From assembly GCF_001899075.1 (NCBI RefSeq), contig NZ_MKVA01000005.1, positions 310,001 through 374,000 on the forward strand: a DNA stretch of 64,000 bases, read 5' to 3'. Source of the DNA: Devosia sp. 67-54 (GTDB taxonomy: Bacteria > Pseudomonadota > Alphaproteobacteria > Rhizobiales > Devosiaceae). A program made the translations under genes and the position numbers. This document shows positions 27,495 through 46,634 of the stretch, one piece after another. Each line of letters starts with the position of its first letter. Positions within the stretch are counted from its first letter, which is position 1. Below the pieces are notes generated by a model. That model did no database searches. It saw nothing but the letters and a program-made list of their open reading frames with translations, and was not told the DNA's origin.

Positions 27495-28259
27495 ATGTCC
27501 GACTGGTCTCCCTCCCTCTATGCCCGTTTCGAGGACGAGCGCACGCGCCCGGCGCGCGATCTCGTCGCGCAGGTGCCGCTGGATGCAGCGCGGCGCATCG
27601 TCGACATGGGGTGCGGGCCGGGCAATTCCACCGAGCTTCTGGTCGCGCGCTGGCCCGCAGCGTCGGTGCTCGGCCTCGACAGCTCGCCGGCCATGCTGGA
27701 GGAGGCGCGCAAGCGCCTGCCGCAGGCGAGCTTCGCGCAGGCCGATGCCAATGTCTGGCGGCCGGAGCCCGGCACCGATCTCGTCTTCGCCAACGCCATC
27801 TACCAATGGCTGCCCAACCATCTCGAGGTGCTGCCCGAGGTGCTGGCGGCGCTGGACGAGGGGGCGTGCCTTGCGGTGCAGATGCCCGACAACCTCGCCG
27901 AGCCGACGCATCGGCTGATGCGCGAGGTGGCGGCCGAAGGGCCGTGGGCCGAGCGCCTCGAGGGCGCGGCGCGCCTGCCGCTGCCGTCGCCGCACGTCTA
28001 TTACGACGCGCTGCAGCCGTTCGCCCGCCGCATCGAGCTCTGGCACAGCATCTATAACCACGTTCTGGCCGACGCCGCGGCCATCGTCGAATGGGTGAAG
28101 TCGACCGGGCTCAGGCCGTTCCTCGAGCCGCTGAGCGCCGACGAGCGCACCGCCTTCCTCGCCGACTACACCGGCCGCATCGCCCGCGCCTATCCGCCCA
28201 CCATCGACGGCCGCGTGCTGCTGCGCTTCCCCCGCCTGTTCATCGTTGCCGTGCGCTAG
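27495..28259 (+). CDS. tam: Trans-aconitate 2-methyltransferase Tam
   Basis: 254 aa from the ATG at 27495 ([20 protein letters not shown]), which is the typical Tam start. The SAM-binding motif [15 protein letters not shown] is near residue 37 and [18 protein letters not shown] near residue 98. [17 protein letters not shown] and VYYDALQP follow the Tam pattern, as does the [10 protein letters not shown] region. Methylates trans-aconitate, relieving aconitase inhibition. Confidence 0.92.
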
Positions 28260-28429
28260 CGATTCGTCCGGCGCGGCCCCCGCGGTTTCGCCCGATTCCG
28301 GCCGATTTCCGGCCCAATTCCGCCATCCCGGGCACGTGGTCACGCCTGCGCGTTCCCTCTTGCGCCGGAGCGGCCGGCGTGCCCCACTCCGGCGCGGCGA
28401 CCTTTCATCCGTCCGGGGGTTTCATCATC

Positions 28430-28936
28430 ATGCGTAGTTCCATCATCATCGGCGCCGTCCTGGCGCTGGCCGTCGGCACGCCGGCCTGGGCCTGCACCGA
28501 CATTTCCAGCAAGACCGTCAAGCTCAGCGCCTGCGTCGACGAGGAGTGGAAGGCCGGGCAGGGCACCGGCGCGCAGGAGTTCGTCTATGCCACCGCCGAC
28601 GGCAATTTCGGCCTGATGGTCATCACCGAGGCCGAGACCTTCCCCATCGCCAAGTTCCGCGACGCCATCATCGCCAACGCCATCCACGGCGTCGGCGACA
28701 AGAAGGACGACGTGTCCATCGACTCCGAGCGTATCGAAAACATCGACGGCAAGCCGTTCAACGTCATCGAGTACCAGGTCGCCAACAACGGCAACCCGAT
28801 CCTGTTCCAGAATTTCTACTATTCGCAGCCGGGGTTCGGGTCGGTCCAGATTCTGTCGTATAGCCTCGCTACAGACTCGACCGTCGCCGCCTACAAGGCG
28901 GGCGTTTTCGCGTCGACCGTCAAGGTCGGCGAGTAG
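28430..28936 (+). CDS. Exported protein with the domain shared by the downstream TIR protein (copy A)
   Basis: 168 aa from the ATG at 28430. Signal peptide of 21 residues with an AWA cleavage site; the mature protein begins at Cys22. Cys22 and Cys35 likely pair. Core features are DEEWKAGQGTGAQEFVY, FRDAIIANAIHG, a predicted turn IDGKPFNVIEY and the hallmark NFYYSQPGFGSVQ. The size and strand pattern resemble the Mog1/PsbP/DUF1795-type fold, but that is a guess. The next gene is a paralogue, and the same domain forms the C-terminus of the TIR membrane protein after that. Confidence 0.75.
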   Translation: MRSSIIIGAVLALAVGTPAWACTDISSKTVKLSACVDEEWKAGQGTGAQEFVYATADGNFGLMVITEAETFPIAKFRDAIIANAIHGVGDKKDDVSIDSERIENIDGKPFNVIEYQVANNGNPILFQNFYYSQPGFGSVQILSYSLATDSTVAAYKAGVFASTVKVGE

Positions 28937-29018
28937 CGCATCGTTACCGGCATGCCGGTGGCCGGCCCGTCGCCGACGGGCGGACGCCGCATGATCCTTG
29001 TTCAGAGGAAAACGTCTT

Positions 29019-29555
29019 ATGCCCATCAAGTCATTGTTCGTCGGCGCCGTGCTCGGCGTCGCGCTGGGGGCGCTGCCGGCGCTCGCCGCCGATCCCGATT
29101 GCGGGTCGGCCAACCTGATCAAAAGCGCCAAGCTCAAGCTCGAAGCCTGCGTCGATCCCGCCGTCTGGGAGGCCGGGCAGGGCACCGGCGACCAGGAATT
29201 CGTGTACTTCTCCAAGGACGGCAAAGCGGGCCTCGCCGTCGTCACCGAAGAGCCCTCGGTCGACCTCAAGGCCTATCACGACGCCATCCTGGGTTTTGCC
29301 AGCAAGCAGTCGGGCGCCGCGGCGCCGGTGACCTCGTACGACGACGCCACCACCACCATCAACGGCAAGGACTGGGGCAGCATGCACTACAACGTCAAGG
29401 TGCAGGGCCAGGAGCTCGAATTCCTCAACTACTACTATTCGGAGCAGGGCCTCGGCTCGGCGCAGTTCATCTTCTGGAGCCTGCCGGACGACGCCGGCAG
29501 CACCAGCACCGAGCTCGCCGGCAAGGTGATGCCGACCGTCACCGTGACCAACTAG
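29019..29555 (+). CDS. Exported protein with the domain shared by the downstream TIR protein (copy B)
   Basis: 178 aa from the ATG at 29019; AGGAAAA precedes it. Signal peptide LFVGAVLGVALGALPALA with cleavage before AADPD. Cys28 and Cys44 match the Cys pair of the preceding protein. Shared features are AVWEAGQGTGDQEFVYFSKD, AYHDAILGFA, INGKDWGSMHY and NYYYSEQGLGSAQ. Periplasmic or secreted; function unknown. The gap to the upstream gene is 82 nt and to the TIR gene 67 nt, so a three-gene operon is likely. Confidence 0.75.
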   Translation: MPIKSLFVGAVLGVALGALPALAADPDCGSANLIKSAKLKLEACVDPAVWEAGQGTGDQEFVYFSKDGKAGLAVVTEEPSVDLKAYHDAILGFASKQSGAAAPVTSYDDATTTINGKDWGSMHYNVKVQGQELEFLNYYYSEQGLGSAQFIFWSLPDDAGSTSTELAGKVMPTVTVTN

Positions 29556-29622
29556 CCGCAGGCGTCGTGGGCGGCGGCGGGATCGCCGCCCATCCCGGTC
29601 CGGTCGAGGCGAGGGGGCGCCG

Positions 29623-30594
29623 ATGACCCAGGTTTTCATTTCCTACAGCCGCACCGAACGTCCGGCCGCCGCGCGGCTGGCCGAACGGCTGACCGAGGCC
29701 GGCTACAGCGTCTGGTGGGACGCCGAGCTGGTCGGCGGCCAGCGCTTCGAGGAGGAGATCCAGTCGGCGCTGCGCGCGGCCAGGGCGGTGCTGGTGCTGT
29801 GGTCCAAATCCTCGCTCGCCTCCGACTGGGTGCGGGCGGAGGCGGAGGTGGCGCGGGTGGCGCGCACCGCCGTGCCGGTGCTGATCGATGCCGTCGCCGT
29901 CGACGATCTGCCGCTGGTGTTCCGGGCGCTGCATGCCATCGACCTCAGCGGCTGGAACGGCGATCCCGCCGCGCCCGCCTTTCGCGAAATCCTCGGCGCC
30001 GTGGAGAAGCTGGTCGGCGCGCCGCCGTCGCCGTCCGCGCCGCGCCCGCCGCCGCGCCAAGCGCCGCGCCGCCGCTGGCTGTTCGCGGGGCTGGCGGTGG
30101 TGGGGCTGCTGCTGCTGGCCGGGGCCGGCTGGTGGGTACTGCGGCCGGCGGGAGCGGGCGGCTGCGCCGGCGAGACGGTGGCGGTCAGCGGCGTGCCGAT
30201 GAGCGTCTGCGTCACCGCCGAGTGGACTCCCACCAATGTCGAGCCCTACCAGTACGACAGCGCCAATGCGCAGGTGCAGTTCCGCATCATCGGCGGCCCG
30301 GACGTGCTGACCGCGCAGGCCTTCCGCGACGCCATCGTGCACAATGCGCAGCGGATCGCCGGCGATCCCGCCCGCATCGCCATCGTCCGCGACGGCGCGC
30401 TGACGGTGGACGGCATGCCCTGGCGCTTCATCGAATTCACCAATCAGGGGCAGGCGGCGTTCGTCAATTTCTACTATTCCGGCCCCGGCTTCGGCTCGGT
30501 GCAGGTGCTGTTCGTGAGCTCGGTGGCGGACGTCGCGATCCGCAACAGCCTTGCCGATCCGGTGCTGAAATCGATCCGCGACACCCGCCGCTGA
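29623..30594 (+). CDS. TIR-domain membrane protein with extracytoplasmic sensor-like domain
   Basis: 323 aa. Residues 1-130 are a bacterial TIR domain: TQVFISYSR at the start, YSVWWDAELVGGQRFEEEI, then SSLASDWVRAEAEVA, where Glu73 is at the position of the NADase catalytic Glu. A Pro/Arg-rich linker (132-150) leads to one membrane helix (about 151-173, preceded by Arg-rich residues, so the TIR is cytoplasmic). Residues 180-323 are outside the membrane and homologous to the two exported proteins just upstream: Cys181/Cys196 pair, AFRDAIVHNAQ, VDGMPWRFIEF and NFYYSGPGFGSVQ. Suggests signal sensing in the envelope coupled to NAD hydrolysis or TIR signalling inside; not demonstrated. Confidence 0.82.
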   Translation: MTQVFISYSRTERPAAARLAERLTEAGYSVWWDAELVGGQRFEEEIQSALRAARAVLVLWSKSSLASDWVRAEAEVARVARTAVPVLIDAVAVDDLPLVFRALHAIDLSGWNGDPAAPAFREILGAVEKLVGAPPSPSAPRPPPRQAPRRRWLFAGLAVVGLLLLAGAGWWVLRPAGAGGCAGETVAVSGVPMSVCVTAEWTPTNVEPYQYDSANAQVQFRIIGGPDVLTAQAFRDAIVHNAQRIAGDPARIAIVRDGALTVDGMPWRFIEFTNQGQAAFVNFYYSGPGFGSVQVLFVSSVADVAIRNSLADPVLKSIRDTRR

Positions 30595-30595
30595 G

Positions 30596-31048
30596 CTACA
30601 CCGCGAGCAGCCCGTCGAAATGCTCGGCCAGCCGCGCCGTCGGGATGTTGGTCAGGTCCTTGGGCAGTTCCGCAAGGATGGCGCCGCGCACGCTTTCGCT
30701 CAGCGCCGGCCGCAGATCGCCCAGCGCCGCCGGCGCCGCGGCGATCACCAGCCGGTCGAAATCGCCGGCGGCGTGCCGCGCCTCGAGCAGATCGGCCAGC
30801 CGCTCGACGAAGCGGCGCTCGCGCGCCTCCACCGGGTCGGTGCGATAGTCGACCGCCGAGCGGGTGTTCGGCCCCGCCGACGAGAACGAGCGGCCGGGCT
30901 TGTCGGCCATGATGTCCTGCGCCTTCAGCCGCTCCTGCTCGAGCTGCAGCCCGTCGACGGCGTGCAGGCCGCGTCCCGGCCCGTCATGCTCGAAAATCTT
31001 GGCCTGATCTCCATCCGCCACCACGATCCAGGTTTTCGTCGGCTTCAT
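30596..31048 (-). CDS. Host attachment family protein (release-factor-like)
   Basis: 150 aa from the ATG at 31048 with AAGGAG 8 nt upstream. Pattern of the Host_attach/AtsE family: TWIVVADGDQAKIFEHDGPG, then AQDIMADKPGRSFSSAGP, the EARERRFVERLADLLE helix, DRLVIAAAPAALGDLRPAL and a closing LTNIPTARLAEHF. The family was named from an Agrobacterium attachment mutant and is structurally related to archaeo-eukaryotic release factors; its molecular role is unclear. Its stop is 1 nt from the TIR gene stop (convergent). Confidence 0.85.
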   Translation of the reverse strand: MKPTKTWIVVADGDQAKIFEHDGPGRGLHAVDGLQLEQERLKAQDIMADKPGRSFSSAGPNTRSAVDYRTDPVEARERRFVERLADLLEARHAAGDFDRLVIAAAPAALGDLRPALSESVRGAILAELPKDLTNIPTARLAEHFDGLLAV

Positions 31049-31223
31049 CGCTTGCGCTCCTTTGCTGCATGCCAAGGCTAAACGCCCCGGCGCGCGATTG
31101 GTTGGCGCGGCGCATCAGCGGCCCGGCACCTGCCGATCACAAACTCTGATTGGCCGGGCAGGGCGTTGGCTGCTACGACGCTGCTCATAGTTGAGGAGCG
31201 CCCGGGGTCCGGGCCATTCGCGC

Positions 31224-32168
31224 GTGTCCGCCATCGCCCCCGCCACTGCCGAACCTGCCGCTGCGCGCACCCGCGCGGGCTTCGTCGCCGGGTTCAGCGC
31301 CTATGCCCTGTGGGGCTTCCTGCCGCTGCTGTTCCATCTGCTCGACGGCGTCGGTTCGGTCACGGTGGTGGCGAACCGGACCCTGTGGTCGCTGCTGTTC
31401 GTGGGCGTCGTCATCGTCGCCAGTCGGCGGCTGGGCGAGGTCAGGGCGGCGCTCCGCGACCGGGCGACGCTGCGCTCGATGTTCATCTCGACGCTGCTTT
31501 TGGGAGGCAACTGGCTCATCTACATCTGGGCGGTCGATGCCGGGCAGGTGCTCGAATCCAGCTTCGGCTATTTCATCAACCCGCTGGTCAACGTTGCCAT
31601 CGGCGTGCTGTTCCTGGGCGAGCGGCAGAACCGCTGGCAATGGGTGGCGATCGCGGTGGCGGTGGTCGCCATCGCCATCCAGGCCATCGGCGTCGGCCGC
31701 ATTCCGTTCATCGCGCTGGGGCTGGCGCTGACCTTCGGCTTCTACGGCTTTTTCCGCAAGACCGCGCGGGTCAATTCGGCGAGCGGCCTGTTCGTCGAAA
31801 CGCTGATCCTGTGCCCGCTGGCGCTGTTGTGGATCGGCTGGACCCTGTGGCAGCAGGGCGGGCCGGGCGTTCTCGCCCAGCCCTATTATTTTTGGCTGCT
31901 GGCGCTCACCGGCCCGGCGACGGCGGTGCCGCTGCTGCTGTTCGCCTTCGCGGTGCAGCGGCTGCGCTTCACCACCGCCGGCATGCTGCAATATGTCGGC
32001 CCGACCATCCAGTTCCTGCTTGCCATTCTGGTGCTGGGCGAGTCGATCAACGCCACGCAATGGCTGAGTTTCGGGCTGATCTGGGTGTCGCTGATCATCT
32101 ATTCCGCCGATTCGGTGGCGCGCCGCCGCAGCCCGGCGCGTGTCGGGCCGGCCGAACCAAGCCCTTGA
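31224..32168 (+). CDS. rarD: EamA-family transporter RarD
   Basis: 314 aa from a GTG at 31224; a TTG at 31191 is an alternative and neither has a strong ribosome site. About ten membrane helices in two EamA repeats. RarD hallmarks: FSAYALWGFLPLLFHLL, ANRTLWSLLFV, GGNWLIYIWAVDAGQVLESS, FGYFINPLVNVAIGVLFLGE and QYVGPTIQFLLAILVLGE. Inner-membrane metabolite/drug permease; the transported compound is not known. Confidence 0.9.
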   Translation: MSAIAPATAEPAAARTRAGFVAGFSAYALWGFLPLLFHLLDGVGSVTVVANRTLWSLLFVGVVIVASRRLGEVRAALRDRATLRSMFISTLLLGGNWLIYIWAVDAGQVLESSFGYFINPLVNVAIGVLFLGERQNRWQWVAIAVAVVAIAIQAIGVGRIPFIALGLALTFGFYGFFRKTARVNSASGLFVETLILCPLALLWIGWTLWQQGGPGVLAQPYYFWLLALTGPATAVPLLLFAFAVQRLRFTTAGMLQYVGPTIQFLLAILVLGESINATQWLSFGLIWVSLIIYSADSVARRRSPARVGPAEPSP

Positions 32169-33445: not shown

Positions 33446-33478
33446 CCCTGAATCACTGTTCTACCTCCAAACCCTCCC

Positions 33479-33504
33479 CGGCGGCCTCGGCCGCCGTTTT
33501 TTTT
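33479..33504 (+). terminator. Rho-independent terminator after the DUF2336 gene
   Basis: CGGCGGCC / GGCCGCCG hairpin with a 2-nt loop, followed directly by eight T residues. Confidence 0.85.
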
Positions 33505-33572
33505 GCGACAGACAAAGCGCGGAGATGCCGACGCCGGGGCAGCGCCCTGAAGCCCGCAGTCGGCGATCCTCT

Positions 33573-33625
33573 CCCGCTTGCGGGGGAGGGGGACCACGCG
33601 CAGCGTGGTGGAGGGGGCGGCCCCA
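33573..33625. repeat. GC-rich dispersed palindromic repeat
   Basis: Contains CTCTCCCGCTTGCGGGGGAG followed by a second small hairpin ACCACGCGCAGCGTGGT. Such G-run/C-run palindromes recur in other gaps of this window, though this copy belongs to a different subtype from those at 41902, 51489 and 62707. Confidence 0.55.
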
Positions 33626-33725
33626 AGCACCGCGCGCGGGAGAAGGACCCGACTACCCCATCGCGGCCCGGCTTCCCACCGTCATTCCCGCCTCTTTCCG
33701 CATCGTCATTCCCGCCTCCTCCCAC

Positions 33726-33815
33726 ATCGTCATTCCCGCGAAAGCGGGAATCCAGGCGGAGTGTCCGGACGCCCATGAGCCCGGTCTGGAGTCCCGCCCG
33801 CGCGGGAGTGACGAT
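33726..33815. repeat. 90-nt palindromic repeat, copy 1, with decayed half-copies upstream
   Basis: Begins ATCGTCATTCCCGCGAAAGC and ends CGCGGGAGTGACGAT, forming a long imperfect hairpin. The same unit recurs at 63431-63520 with the same length and an alike centre. Two partial units (GTCATTCCCGCCTC type) lie directly upstream at about 33683-33725. The rest of the 33446-33934 gap holds only the terminator, the repeat at 33573 and the palindromic operator. Confidence 0.75.
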
Positions 33816-33896
33816 AGGGAGGAATCGCACGATCGATCCATAACCACCACGCGTCATCCCCACCCACCATGACACGTAAACCCTTGCGCCGGGCCG

Positions 33897-38042: not shown

Positions 38043-38309
38043 ATGAACAAGCACGAGCCGCCGCCCAAGGCGCGCGAAGCTGCGGTATTCAAGTCGAACC
38101 GCAGCCAGGCCATCCGCATCCCCAAGGATCTGGCCTTCCCGGAGGACGTGAAGAAGGTCACCATCACGCCGGCGGAAGGCGGCGGGCTGCTGATCAGGCC
38201 CGCGGGCCGCGACTGGGCGGCCTATTTCGCCAACGGCCCGCATGTGTCGGATGATTTCCTGGAAGACCGCGATCAGGGGGTTGCAGAAGAGCGCGAGCCT
38301 CTCGATTGA
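38043..38309 (+). CDS. vapB: AbrB/MazE-fold antitoxin VapB
   Basis: 88 aa from the ATG at 38043, which is 6 nt after GGAG; an ATG at 38037 is too close to it. The N-terminal swapped-hairpin DNA-binding domain reads AAVFKSNRSQAIRIPKDLAF, followed by VKKVTITPAEGGGLLIRP. The C-terminal tail (WAAYFANGPHVSDDFLEDRD) is expected to wrap the toxin. Operon with the PIN toxin downstream; autoregulated through the palindrome at 38010. Confidence 0.9.
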   Translation: MNKHEPPPKAREAAVFKSNRSQAIRIPKDLAFPEDVKKVTITPAEGGGLLIRPAGRDWAAYFANGPHVSDDFLEDRDQGVAEEREPLD

Positions 38310-38317
38310 CGGGGTAC

Positions 38318-38704
38318 ATGCTGGATACCAACATCTGCATCTACATGATGGGGCGGCCTGATGACGGGCTGGCGCTTCGCGCCAACAGGCACGCGGGTGA
38401 TTTGTTCGTTTCCAGCATCTCGGTCGGCGAACTGCTTTTCGGCGCGGCCAAATCGTCTCGGCAACTCGCCAACCGGCTGGCGGTCGAAGACTTCCTGAGC
38501 GTCCTGAAGGTCCCCGATTTCGATGCCGCGGCGGCGGCGCATTTCGGGGAAATTCGCGCGCATCTCGAACGAGCGGGAACGCCCTGTGGCCCCTATGACA
38601 TGCTCATCGGCGCGCACGCCCGGTCGCTCGGGCTGACGCTGGTCACCAACAACCGGCGGGAGTTCGACCGCATGCCCGGCCTTACGGTCGAAAACTGGGT
38701 CTGA
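38318..38704 (+). CDS. vapC: PIN-domain ribonuclease toxin VapC
   Basis: 128 aa from the ATG at 38318 (GGGG 5 nt upstream); a TTG at 38306 overlapping the vapB stop is also possible. PIN acidic residues: Asp in YMLDTNICIYMM, Glu in SSISVGELLFGA, Asp in GPYDMLIGAHARS and the end VTNNRREFDRMPGL. Acts as a Mg-dependent RNase, commonly on tRNA. The module sits between rnpB and the dcw cluster. Confidence 0.93.
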   Translation: MLDTNICIYMMGRPDDGLALRANRHAGDLFVSSISVGELLFGAAKSSRQLANRLAVEDFLSVLKVPDFDAAAAAHFGEIRAHLERAGTPCGPYDMLIGAHARSLGLTLVTNNRREFDRMPGLTVENWV

Positions 38705-44908: not shown

Positions 44909-45994
44909 ATGCTCTACTACCTCGGCCAGTTGGGCGAGAATGTCACGGCGTTTAACGTCTTCCGCTACATCACTTTCCGCACTGCGGGCGCGGTGGTCAC
45001 GGCGCTGTTCTTCGTCTTCCTGTTCGGCCCGCAGATCATTGCGGCGCTGCGCATCCGGCAGGGCGGCGGGCAGCCGATCCGCGAGGACGGGCCGCAGAGC
45101 CATCTGATCACCAAGAAGGGCACGCCCACCATGGGCGGGCTGATGATCCTCGCCGGCGCGGTGATCTCGACGCTGCTCTGGTCGAACCTTTCCAACGTCT
45201 ATGTCTGGGCGGTGCTGTTCGTCACCGTCAGCTTCGGCGCGATCGGCTTCTATGACGACTACCTCAAGGTCAAGAAGATGTCGCACAAGGGCTTCTCGGG
45301 CGTACAGCGCCTGGTCATCGAAGCCATCGTGGCGCTGATCGCCGCCTACATCGTCGCCTCGGTGACCGACCCCAAGATCGCGACGCAGTTGATGTTCCCG
45401 TTCATCAAGGGACACGGGCTGCCGCTGTGGTACTTCTTCTACATCTTCGCCGGCTTCATCATCGTGGGCGCCGGCAATTCGGTGAACTTCACCGACGGGC
45501 TCGACGGCCTCGCCATCGTGCCGGTGATGATCGCCGCCGCGACCTTCGGGCTGATCGCCTACCTCGTGGGCTCCGCCACCTTCTCGGAATACCTGCTGCT
45601 CAACAACGTCCCGGGCACCGGCGAATTGGCGGTGGTGTGCGGGGCGCTGATCGGCGCCGGGCTCGGCTTTCTGTGGTTCAACGCGCCGCCGGCGCAGATC
45701 TTCATGGGCGACACCGGCTCGCTCGCCCTGGGCGGCGCGCTCGGCACCATCGCGGTCGCCACCAAGCACGAGATCGTGCTGGCCATCGTCGGCGGCCTGT
45801 TCGTGCTCGAAACCGTGTCGGTGATCGTGCAGGTGCTGTCGTTCAAGCTCACTGGCAAGCGCGTCTTCAAGATGGCCCCGATCCACCATCATTTCGAAAT
45901 GCTGGGCTGGACCGAAAGCCAGGTGGTGATCCGCTTCTGGATCATCTCCTTCGTCCTCGCGCTCATCGGCCTCAGCGAGCTGAAGCTGCGCTAA
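44909..45994 (+). CDS. mraY: Phospho-MurNAc-pentapeptide translocase MraY
   Basis: 361 aa, about ten membrane helices. Transfers phospho-MurNAc-pentapeptide to undecaprenyl phosphate (lipid I). Signatures: [30 protein letters not shown] (catalytic Asp pair), [33 protein letters not shown] and [20 protein letters not shown]. murD would be expected next but is absent; the antisense toxin gene begins at its stop. Confidence 0.97.
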
Positions 45995-46395
45995 GGCAGG
46001 ACAGCGACCCCTTCGGCGCGCGCTGCGGCCGCCAGCTCCTCGTCCAGCGTCGCGAGCGGAAGTTTCCGTCGTCGCGCAAGTTCAAGATAAGCAGCATCGT
46101 AGACGGTCAGCTTTCGCTGCTCAGCCAGTTCGACGGCCGCCTGCACCACGTCGACGGAGTTGCTCTCAGTCTGAACGGGCAGCGACATGATCGCCGCGAG
46201 AGAGGCGGCCAGACCGGCGTCGTCGAGACGCTCGCGCCGCCTGCCCATGACGAGCACGTTCGCCGCCTCCATCAACCATTGATGCGGGGCCGTCGCTCCT
46301 TCTGCAAGGACGCGCTCCAGCACGGCCCGGCGGGCAGGGAGGGCCTCGTCAGCGAAGAACCAGGATAGCGTGATCGACGCATCGATCACGATCAC
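45991..46395 (-). CDS. vapC: PIN-domain toxin VapC, antisense inside the dcw cluster
   Basis: 134 aa. PIN pattern: [17 protein letters not shown] with the first Asp, a Glu in [33 protein letters not shown] with the third acid, and [14 protein letters not shown]. Its stop overlaps the mraY stop head-on and its start overlaps the antitoxin by 4 nt. Lies where murD normally is. Confidence 0.88.
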
Positions 46396-46634
46396 TTGCG
46401 CCCCTCGTTGATGAGGTCGTTGATGCTGAGCCCGCCAAGCGTCTGCCTTGCCGCGATCTTGGCGATGCGATCCATCGCCGCCTGCACGTGCGCGCTGTCG
46501 GTGGGTTTGGCGGCCGGGATGACCTTGGCTACGATCTTGCCATCCAGAGTGAGCTCAAACTGCTCTCCGGGCATCGCCGCTGCCAGCAGGCGCTTCAGCC
46601 GCTCGTCTTCATCGATCGAGATGACCTTGTTCAT
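46392..46634 (-). CDS. Phd/YefM-type antitoxin
   Basis: 80 aa from the ATG at 46634 with AAGGAG 8 nt upstream. The fold signature is visible as RLLAAAMPGEQFELTLDGKI followed by VAKVIPA, the usual Phd pattern of a Gly-Glu turn and a strand ending in Ile-Pro. The C-terminal region IAARQTLGGLSINDLINEG should bind the toxin. Forms a toxin-antitoxin operon with the PIN gene. Confidence 0.85.
   Translation of the reverse strand: MNKVISIDEDERLKRLLAAAMPGEQFELTLDGKIVAKVIPAAKPTDSAHVQAAMDRIAKIAARQTLGGLSINDLINEGRK

Follow-up and report, generated by a model that had tools for sequence, protein, structure and literature searches.

How might a bacterial TIR domain be coupled to events beyond the cytoplasmic membrane, and what would exported relatives of its outer part be doing beside it? 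The question is raised by three adjacent genes (positions 28,430 to 30,594) in a 64,000-nucleotide stretch of the Devosia sp. 67-54 genome, hereafter the window (assembly GCF_001899075.1, contig NZ_MKVA01000005.1, positions 310,001 to 374,000). The first two encode small, predicted exported proteins (solo 1 and solo 2), and the third a membrane protein with an N-terminal TIR domain, one helix and a predicted outer domain homologous to both solos. An earlier note on this DNA, made from the letters alone, had read the trio as an envelope-sensing cassette in which the exported proteins may bind the membrane protein, whether as ligand, inhibitor or oligomer partner. Comparisons with related genomes lead us to a different and still tentative reading, namely that the third gene encodes a single-pass type II TIR receptor that took its periplasmic sensor from an older family of exported Mog1/PsbP-like proteins.

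Results

One domain in three adjacent genes

The coordinates and translations (Table 1) agree with the earlier note in placing two exported proteins and a TIR membrane protein side by side on the same strand, separated by 82 bases (solo 1 to solo 2) and 67 bases (solo 2 to the TIR gene). A site scan found no forward-strand terminator-like site between the three genes, its single forward-strand site falling within the TIR gene; nor was any sigma-70-like promoter detected in 28200-31200. We treat the three as a putative operon. For solo 1 an alternative in-frame ATG at 28379 is open too, the signal-peptide-like start coming from 28430.

The central observation is that the outer domain of the TIR protein is homologous to both of its neighbors. 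A search of its whole genome recovered both solos (E 2.7e-15 and 5e-9) and no further copy up to E 10, and the outer domain scored 81 bits against a profile built without its own and sister sequences, the maximum for 2000 shuffles being 8.6. All three copies are supported by leave-one-out profiles (2000 shuffles each), and the two solos share 38% identity across the domain. The common C-terminal domain of the earlier note is thus borne out, its motifs less evenly: the cysteine pair stands, while solo 2 has YHDAI in place of the FRDAI motif of the helix, and the V/INGxxW segment is replaced by IDGKPF (solo 1) and VDGMPW (TIR protein).

The N-terminal part belongs to TIR_2, with a PF13676 score of 92.4 bits against a curated cut-off of 28, and the matches of the protein in PADLOC are confined to this stretch. 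Glu73 aligns with the Glu in the W-x-x-x-E stretch of AbTIR, which we take to be the catalytic residue, and is kept in all six close-type TIRs (the window's counted), each of which has one helix after the TIR. Lysines and arginines number five in the 20 residues preceding the helix and one in the 20 following, a bias that points to the TIR inside and the C-terminus outside; on these topology signals the TIR domain is predicted to be cytosolic and the shared domain extracytoplasmic. The reading of an N-terminal TIR with a Glu in SDWVRAE, one membrane helix and an outer C-terminal domain therefore holds.

The only cysteines of the TIR protein, 181 and 196, both fall within the outer domain, and exactly two domain cysteines, 13-17 residues apart, occur in 17 of the 17 copies used (from the genus and from G022, a further genome of the family), the second being an invariant alignment column. 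We infer a putative disulfide in a domain predicted to lie outside the cytosol. An AlphaFold2 model of the mature part of solo 1 (pLDDT 86) consists of an antiparallel sheet and two helices and matches the structures of PsbP, DcrB and Mog1, which places it in the Mog1/PsbP-like fold at about 5-15% identity. Among Pfam matches to E 1 for 13 domain copies there was none to the DUF1795/DcrB or PsbP families, and the near-matches that did appear (TGT_C2 at E 0.0048, RHS_N at 0.092, and others) were disregarded, each being found in one of the 13 copies.

Table 1. Coordinates of the three genes, of their parts, of the slot neighbors and of the protease fusions found in the same slot (window positions unless a locus is named).
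Feature	Position	Strand	Basis or remark
Solo 1, predicted exported PsbP-like-fold protein, 168 aa	28430-28936	+	translation, hydrophobic N-terminus
Solo 1 signal peptide (predicted)	about 28430-28492	+	cleavage after AWA, by eye
Solo 2, predicted exported paralogue, 178 aa	29019-29555	+	
Solo 2 signal peptide (predicted)	about 29019-29087	+	
TIR–transmembrane–PsbP-like-domain protein, 323 aa	29623-30594	+	PF13676 match, hydropathy
TIR_2 domain, residues 4-122	29632-29988	+	PF13676, E 3.8e-26
Putative catalytic Glu73	29839-29841	+	in SDWVRAE
Single transmembrane helix (predicted), residues 155-173	30085-30141	+	hydropathy, positive-inside bias
Predicted extracytoplasmic domain, residues 181-323, homologous to both solos	30163-30591	+	sequence search, leave-one-out profile
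Slot boundary gene	30596-31048	-	G004 orthologue hits PF10116 (Host_attach / baeRF family 12) at E 1.1e-36
Slot boundary gene, transporter, presumably RarD/EamA-like	31224-32168	+	same neighbor in G022 and wherever a genus contig extends that far past the slot
Upstream S-adenosylmethionine (SAM) methyltransferase, presumably Tam-like	27495-28259	+	PF13649, E 1.1e-14
Exported ClpP-like serine-protease domain fused to PsbP-like domain, same slot, first species	L034:9030-10160	-	
Exported ClpP-like serine-protease domain fused to PsbP-like domain, same slot, second species	L035:9858-11003	+	

Contents and history of the chromosomal slot

The domain occupies the same chromosomal slot in 12 of the 19 genus genomes, beside Host_attach-like and RarD-like genes (G013, at a contig end, was placed by other neighbors, and the contigs of G002 and G008 are cut on the opposite side). 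The boundary gene next to the TIR gene is matched in 16 of the 19, in G016 weakly, and a gene similar to the upstream methyltransferase lies near the slot in L045, L128 and L129. What the slot holds varies: solo 1, solo 2 and the TIR–helix–domain protein in the window's genome (G000); a solo of the solo 2 type and a helix–domain protein without TIR in G018; a solo of the solo 1 type, a ClpP-like–domain protein and a TIR–helix protein in G004, the ectodomain of the last having no detectable similarity to the PsbP-like domain; a solo of the solo 1 type and a ClpP-like–domain protein in G006; and one solo apiece in the remaining eight. No TIR was seen within 10 of the 12 occupied slots, nor did a TIR_2 search find one on the cut-slot contigs of G002, G008 and G013. 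The slot neighbors are present and the domain absent in G001, G007 (on a short contig), G012 and G015; the domain is missing altogether from G009 and G016, the former also lacking a Host_attach match. By eye, a RelE/RelB-type pair (L129:2507-2994, reverse strand) and a RelE/RelB-type antitoxin (L131:3143-3373, reverse strand) lie in or near the slot of two domain-less genus genomes.

Outside the slot, G005 carries the domain solely as a TIR–helix–domain fusion, recognized by a leave-one-out profile at 24.7 bits, where the best of 2000 shuffles reached 11.1, in an assembly of 750 contigs with 7% contamination from which a solo could be missing. The earlier note had held that its proposal would fall if solo genes never co-occurred with TIR fusions in related genomes; none of the 18 other genus genomes has both, which comes close to that outcome.

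In the trees, solo 2 groups with the slot solo of G018 (86/83) and the domain of the TIR protein with the G018 helix–domain protein (98/95, although the G018 row carries a long-branch flag); the TIR domain of the window protein groups with the slot TIR of G004 (85/95, not starred). The domain of L047 is 11-22% identical to the others, and a two-gene species tree pairs G000 with G018 and G004 with G006 at modest support. One simple reading would start from an ancestral slot that already contained a solo, a paralogue of it and the domain in either helix-anchored or TIR-joined form, with the TIR perhaps lost or swapped afterwards. Judged from slot contents, the solo is a more widespread resident than the TIR fusion, and apparently an older one.

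The N-terminal part of the fusion in G004 and G006 represents a common family, with members at E 1e-5 in 110 of the 249 genomes searched in the order. A 16-member profile of this ClpP-like family retrieves ClpP structures from the PDB at a best E of 3.9e-7, and all 16 members keep a Ser and a His at aligned positions that we take to be the ClpP active site; Pfam CLP_protease matches 10 of them weakly, at best E 6e-5. Reading of 30 ClpP-like loci added no further case, and fusion to the domain was found in G004 and G006 only. Candidate copies in other ClpP-like proteins were rejected as short, weak matches overlapping the ClpP-like part, the best being L206 (E 5.5e-5, 12.3 bits, 40 residues).

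Relatives of the TIR protein and spread of the domain

TIR_2 is present in 12 of the 19 genus genomes, and the close TIR type in 17 of 297 order genomes at E 1e-15, the window's own included. Across 29 order TIR loci, read out of 33 matches after leaving out our own and three without a locus, one helix follows the TIR in 7 (at the very C-terminus in two), several in 5 and none in 17, so TIR–helix–ectodomain is one among several layouts of this TIR type. Domain and TIR_2 occur together in 11 of the 19 genus genomes, the domain by itself in 2, TIR by itself in 1 and neither in 5, an excess of joint occurrence over expectation (Fisher p 0.0095); the corresponding counts for the 15 good genomes are 9/1/1/4 (p 0.017). 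Two genus members encode close-type TIR–helix proteins with Sel1 repeats (L037:7126-9135 and L046:3133-5124, both reverse strand), and two TIR–helix proteins on the forward strand (L168:1474-3153, L170:1474-3207) have an outer part that by eye resembles the formylglycine-generating-enzyme type. In another family, a TIR–helix protein with a 167-aa ectodomain (L182:1483-2457, forward strand, in G554) looks PsbP-like by eye, a likeness for which hhalign gave no support; a PDB search returned weak ecotin matches only.

Counts of the domain are given per search, and the genome sets overlap. In the family survey 18 of 136 genomes matched and four were rejected, leaving 13 of the 19 genus genomes and G022; the four rejected, G451, G465, G486 and G493 (g15), matched over 52-54 profile positions only, with proteins that look SnoaL/NTF2-type by eye. 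Wider surveys, in which the best 9-11 or so first-look candidates per genome were scored and copies were probably missed, found the domain in 2 of 385 genomes for the class, 4 of 397 for the order and 4 of 349 for the phylum (two of these outside the class), our own included each time. Seven remote copies (G576, G787, G742, G1151, G1076, G1163, G257) are single genes; six have, by eye, a signal-peptide-like start and a GRxVxLxxDxTW-like stretch, the start of L160 being ambiguous, and the 11-15 kb of surrounding sequence scanned for each gave no match to a TIR profile. In the lone exported homologues L154-L159 and L048 this stretch lies N-terminal to the domain. DUF3157 was rejected as the identity of the domain because it covers the N-terminal stretch only, in 4 of 8 lone proteins scanned (L048 above the cut-off; L155, L156 and L159 below). 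Solo 1 as query drew no match from viral contigs, plasmids or phages, nor did a plasmid search with the TIR protein at E 1e-10; L076, the sole match in a genome contig set, was a chance match of partial length (profile score 8.6 bits).

Other features of the window

At 45991-46634 (reverse strand), a PIN-domain toxin and a small putative antitoxin are encoded between mraY- and ftsW-like genes of the mur/fts cluster, on the opposite strand to it. That position is usually occupied by murD; the murD of this genome lies about 260 kb away (G000:C5:94586-95860). A second toxin-antitoxin pair, with a MazE-like antitoxin and a PIN toxin (38043-38704, forward strand), sits just upstream of a gene that we take to be rsmH/mraW-like. 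Frames in the intergenic stretch 33450-33870 (SFPRKRESR, VIPAKAGIQ) resemble, by eye, a common dispersed repeat.

Discussion

How could a receptor of the kind we tentatively favor work? The PsbP-like domain would recognize a protein or peptide of the periplasm, or a state of the envelope, to which the exported paralogues bind as well, and binding or release of this ligand might shift the oligomeric state of the receptor, such that the TIR domains assemble in the cytosol and, via Glu73, consume NAD+ or make a nucleotide signal. The exported paralogues may then compete for, buffer or present the common ligand, rather than being ligands dedicated to the receptor. A role in defense or stress is a first guess, made because most characterized bacterial TIR systems serve defense. 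In general terms the best clue is the slot itself, where a single outer domain comes coupled to a TIR in the cytosol, to a protease that is exported or to an anchor alone.

Several observations weigh against a receptor built from these parts. Solos and fusion are found together in the window's genome only; the anchor of G018 has no TIR, and so must be useful apart from one; and the slot TIR of G004 has a dissimilar ectodomain, which argues that the TIR is not tied to the PsbP-like domain. None of the 29 further order loci of the close TIR type carries this domain, the co-occurrence statistics ignore descent, and for the close TIR type the association is not significant (p 0.11, or 0.10 in good genomes). 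A comparable cysteine pair is present in five of the seven remote copies, L158 and L159 being without it, and the modeled copy is a solo rather than the TIR-fused one.

Solos without a TIR in most slots, and remote copies without one nearby, indicate that the solo has a TIR-independent job. The three genes may be neighbors by origin with no interaction, a tandem duplicate of an ordinary envelope protein having become the ectodomain of a passing TIR–helix module, much as Sel1 and other outer domains have elsewhere. This is a somewhat less likely account than the receptor, and it draws on the slots and remote copies just mentioned, on the genus TIR–helix modules with other ectodomains (Sel1 in L037 and L046, an unrelated one in G004) and on the G005 fusion, for which no solo was found; it is harder to square with a slot TIR in two species with different ectodomains, and with a domain that either joined TIR twice or stayed on TIR across a deep split, as its divergence in L047 implies. 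The same solos without TIR, together with the solo-less fusion of G005 and the want of a second genus genome holding both, make it quite unlikely that the exported copies are dedicated partners, even though three homologous domains adjoin in one putative operon. What survives of the envelope-facing TIR in the earlier note is the link between TIR and an extracytoplasmic domain, which the G005 fusion and the sister TIR in the G004 slot suggest is no one-off; a dedicated partner role of the solos is unlikely.

An integrated decoy, in which the PsbP-like proteins would neutralize an incoming periplasmic toxin, like the same-fold immunity proteins of type VI secretion systems (T6SS), and the TIR-fused copy would detect that toxin, strikes us as improbable. 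No toxin was recognized within three genes of the slot copies (by eye only, without toxin models), T6SS_VipA (PF05591) is found in 0 of the 19 genus genomes, so that no T6SS of their own is indicated, although other species might attack with one, the solo holds a fixed position in the genus, and photosynthetic PsbP proteins match the solo equally well or better. A broader proposal, rather unlikely as it stands, is that the domain may be an extracytoplasmic analog of the effector-associated domains discussed below, a common coupling or recognition module of an envelope surveillance locus whose outputs vary by lineage (TIR, ClpP-like protease, anchor), the soluble copies setting a threshold by sharing a ligand or complex.

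The earlier note knew of no described system with this layout. The genus TIR–helix–Sel1 proteins likewise have an N-terminal TIR_2 with the conserved Glu, one helix and a variable outer part, and so the TIR–helix–ectodomain layout is already known; they differ in that the outer part of the window protein is PsbP-like and has adjacent exported paralogues, and that combination is new. No published TIR protein with a PsbP-like domain appeared among the matches listed in our literature search, which left most subscription papers outside its coverage. From the known Mog1/PsbP-like proteins (cyanobacterial PsbP, DcrB, LpqN, EagT6/SciW, Tsi3) the window family differs in its about 5-15% identity, in having no Pfam match to such a family, in fusion to TIR or a ClpP-like protease, and in the cysteine pair. 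Although NCBIfam ThcB4 is the best named match of the TIR domain it shares with Thoeris ThsB/ThcB, the 39.2 bits lie far below the cut-off of 220 and cover TIR residues 3-81 only, and Pfam ThsB_TIR (16.4 bits, cut-off 21.2) is not reached either.

Toll-like receptors, as outlined in PMC7075850, also combine an ectodomain, one helix and a cytosolic TIR; in the window protein the order is reversed, with the TIR N-terminal, and the ectodomain is unrelated, so the likeness is one of layout only. PMC8195603 describes effector-associated domains, in which one non-catalytic domain occurs on different effectors, TIR and proteases included, and in extra copies, as well as caspase proteins with transmembrane helices and a variable, possibly extracellular C-terminus, by which token an effector–helix–sensor layout is as such not new. 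Its coupling domains, tied to effectors and NTPases, we take as cytosolic, and its main text does not use the word periplasm. One small domain on different effectors and by itself is also what we find here (TIR, ClpP-like protease, helix anchor, solo), but the window domain is itself predicted to lie outside the membrane and to be exported, and we do not claim membership of that class.

A domain without a Pfam family has now been placed in the Mog1/PsbP fold, and the slot that it occupies offers a set of natural swaps (TIR, protease, anchor, solo) across related species with which recognition by the domain can be probed. To our knowledge, the characterized bacterial TIR defense proteins work in the cytosol; a TIR linked through a helix to a domain that is also exported would be a bacterial receptor for periplasmic events.
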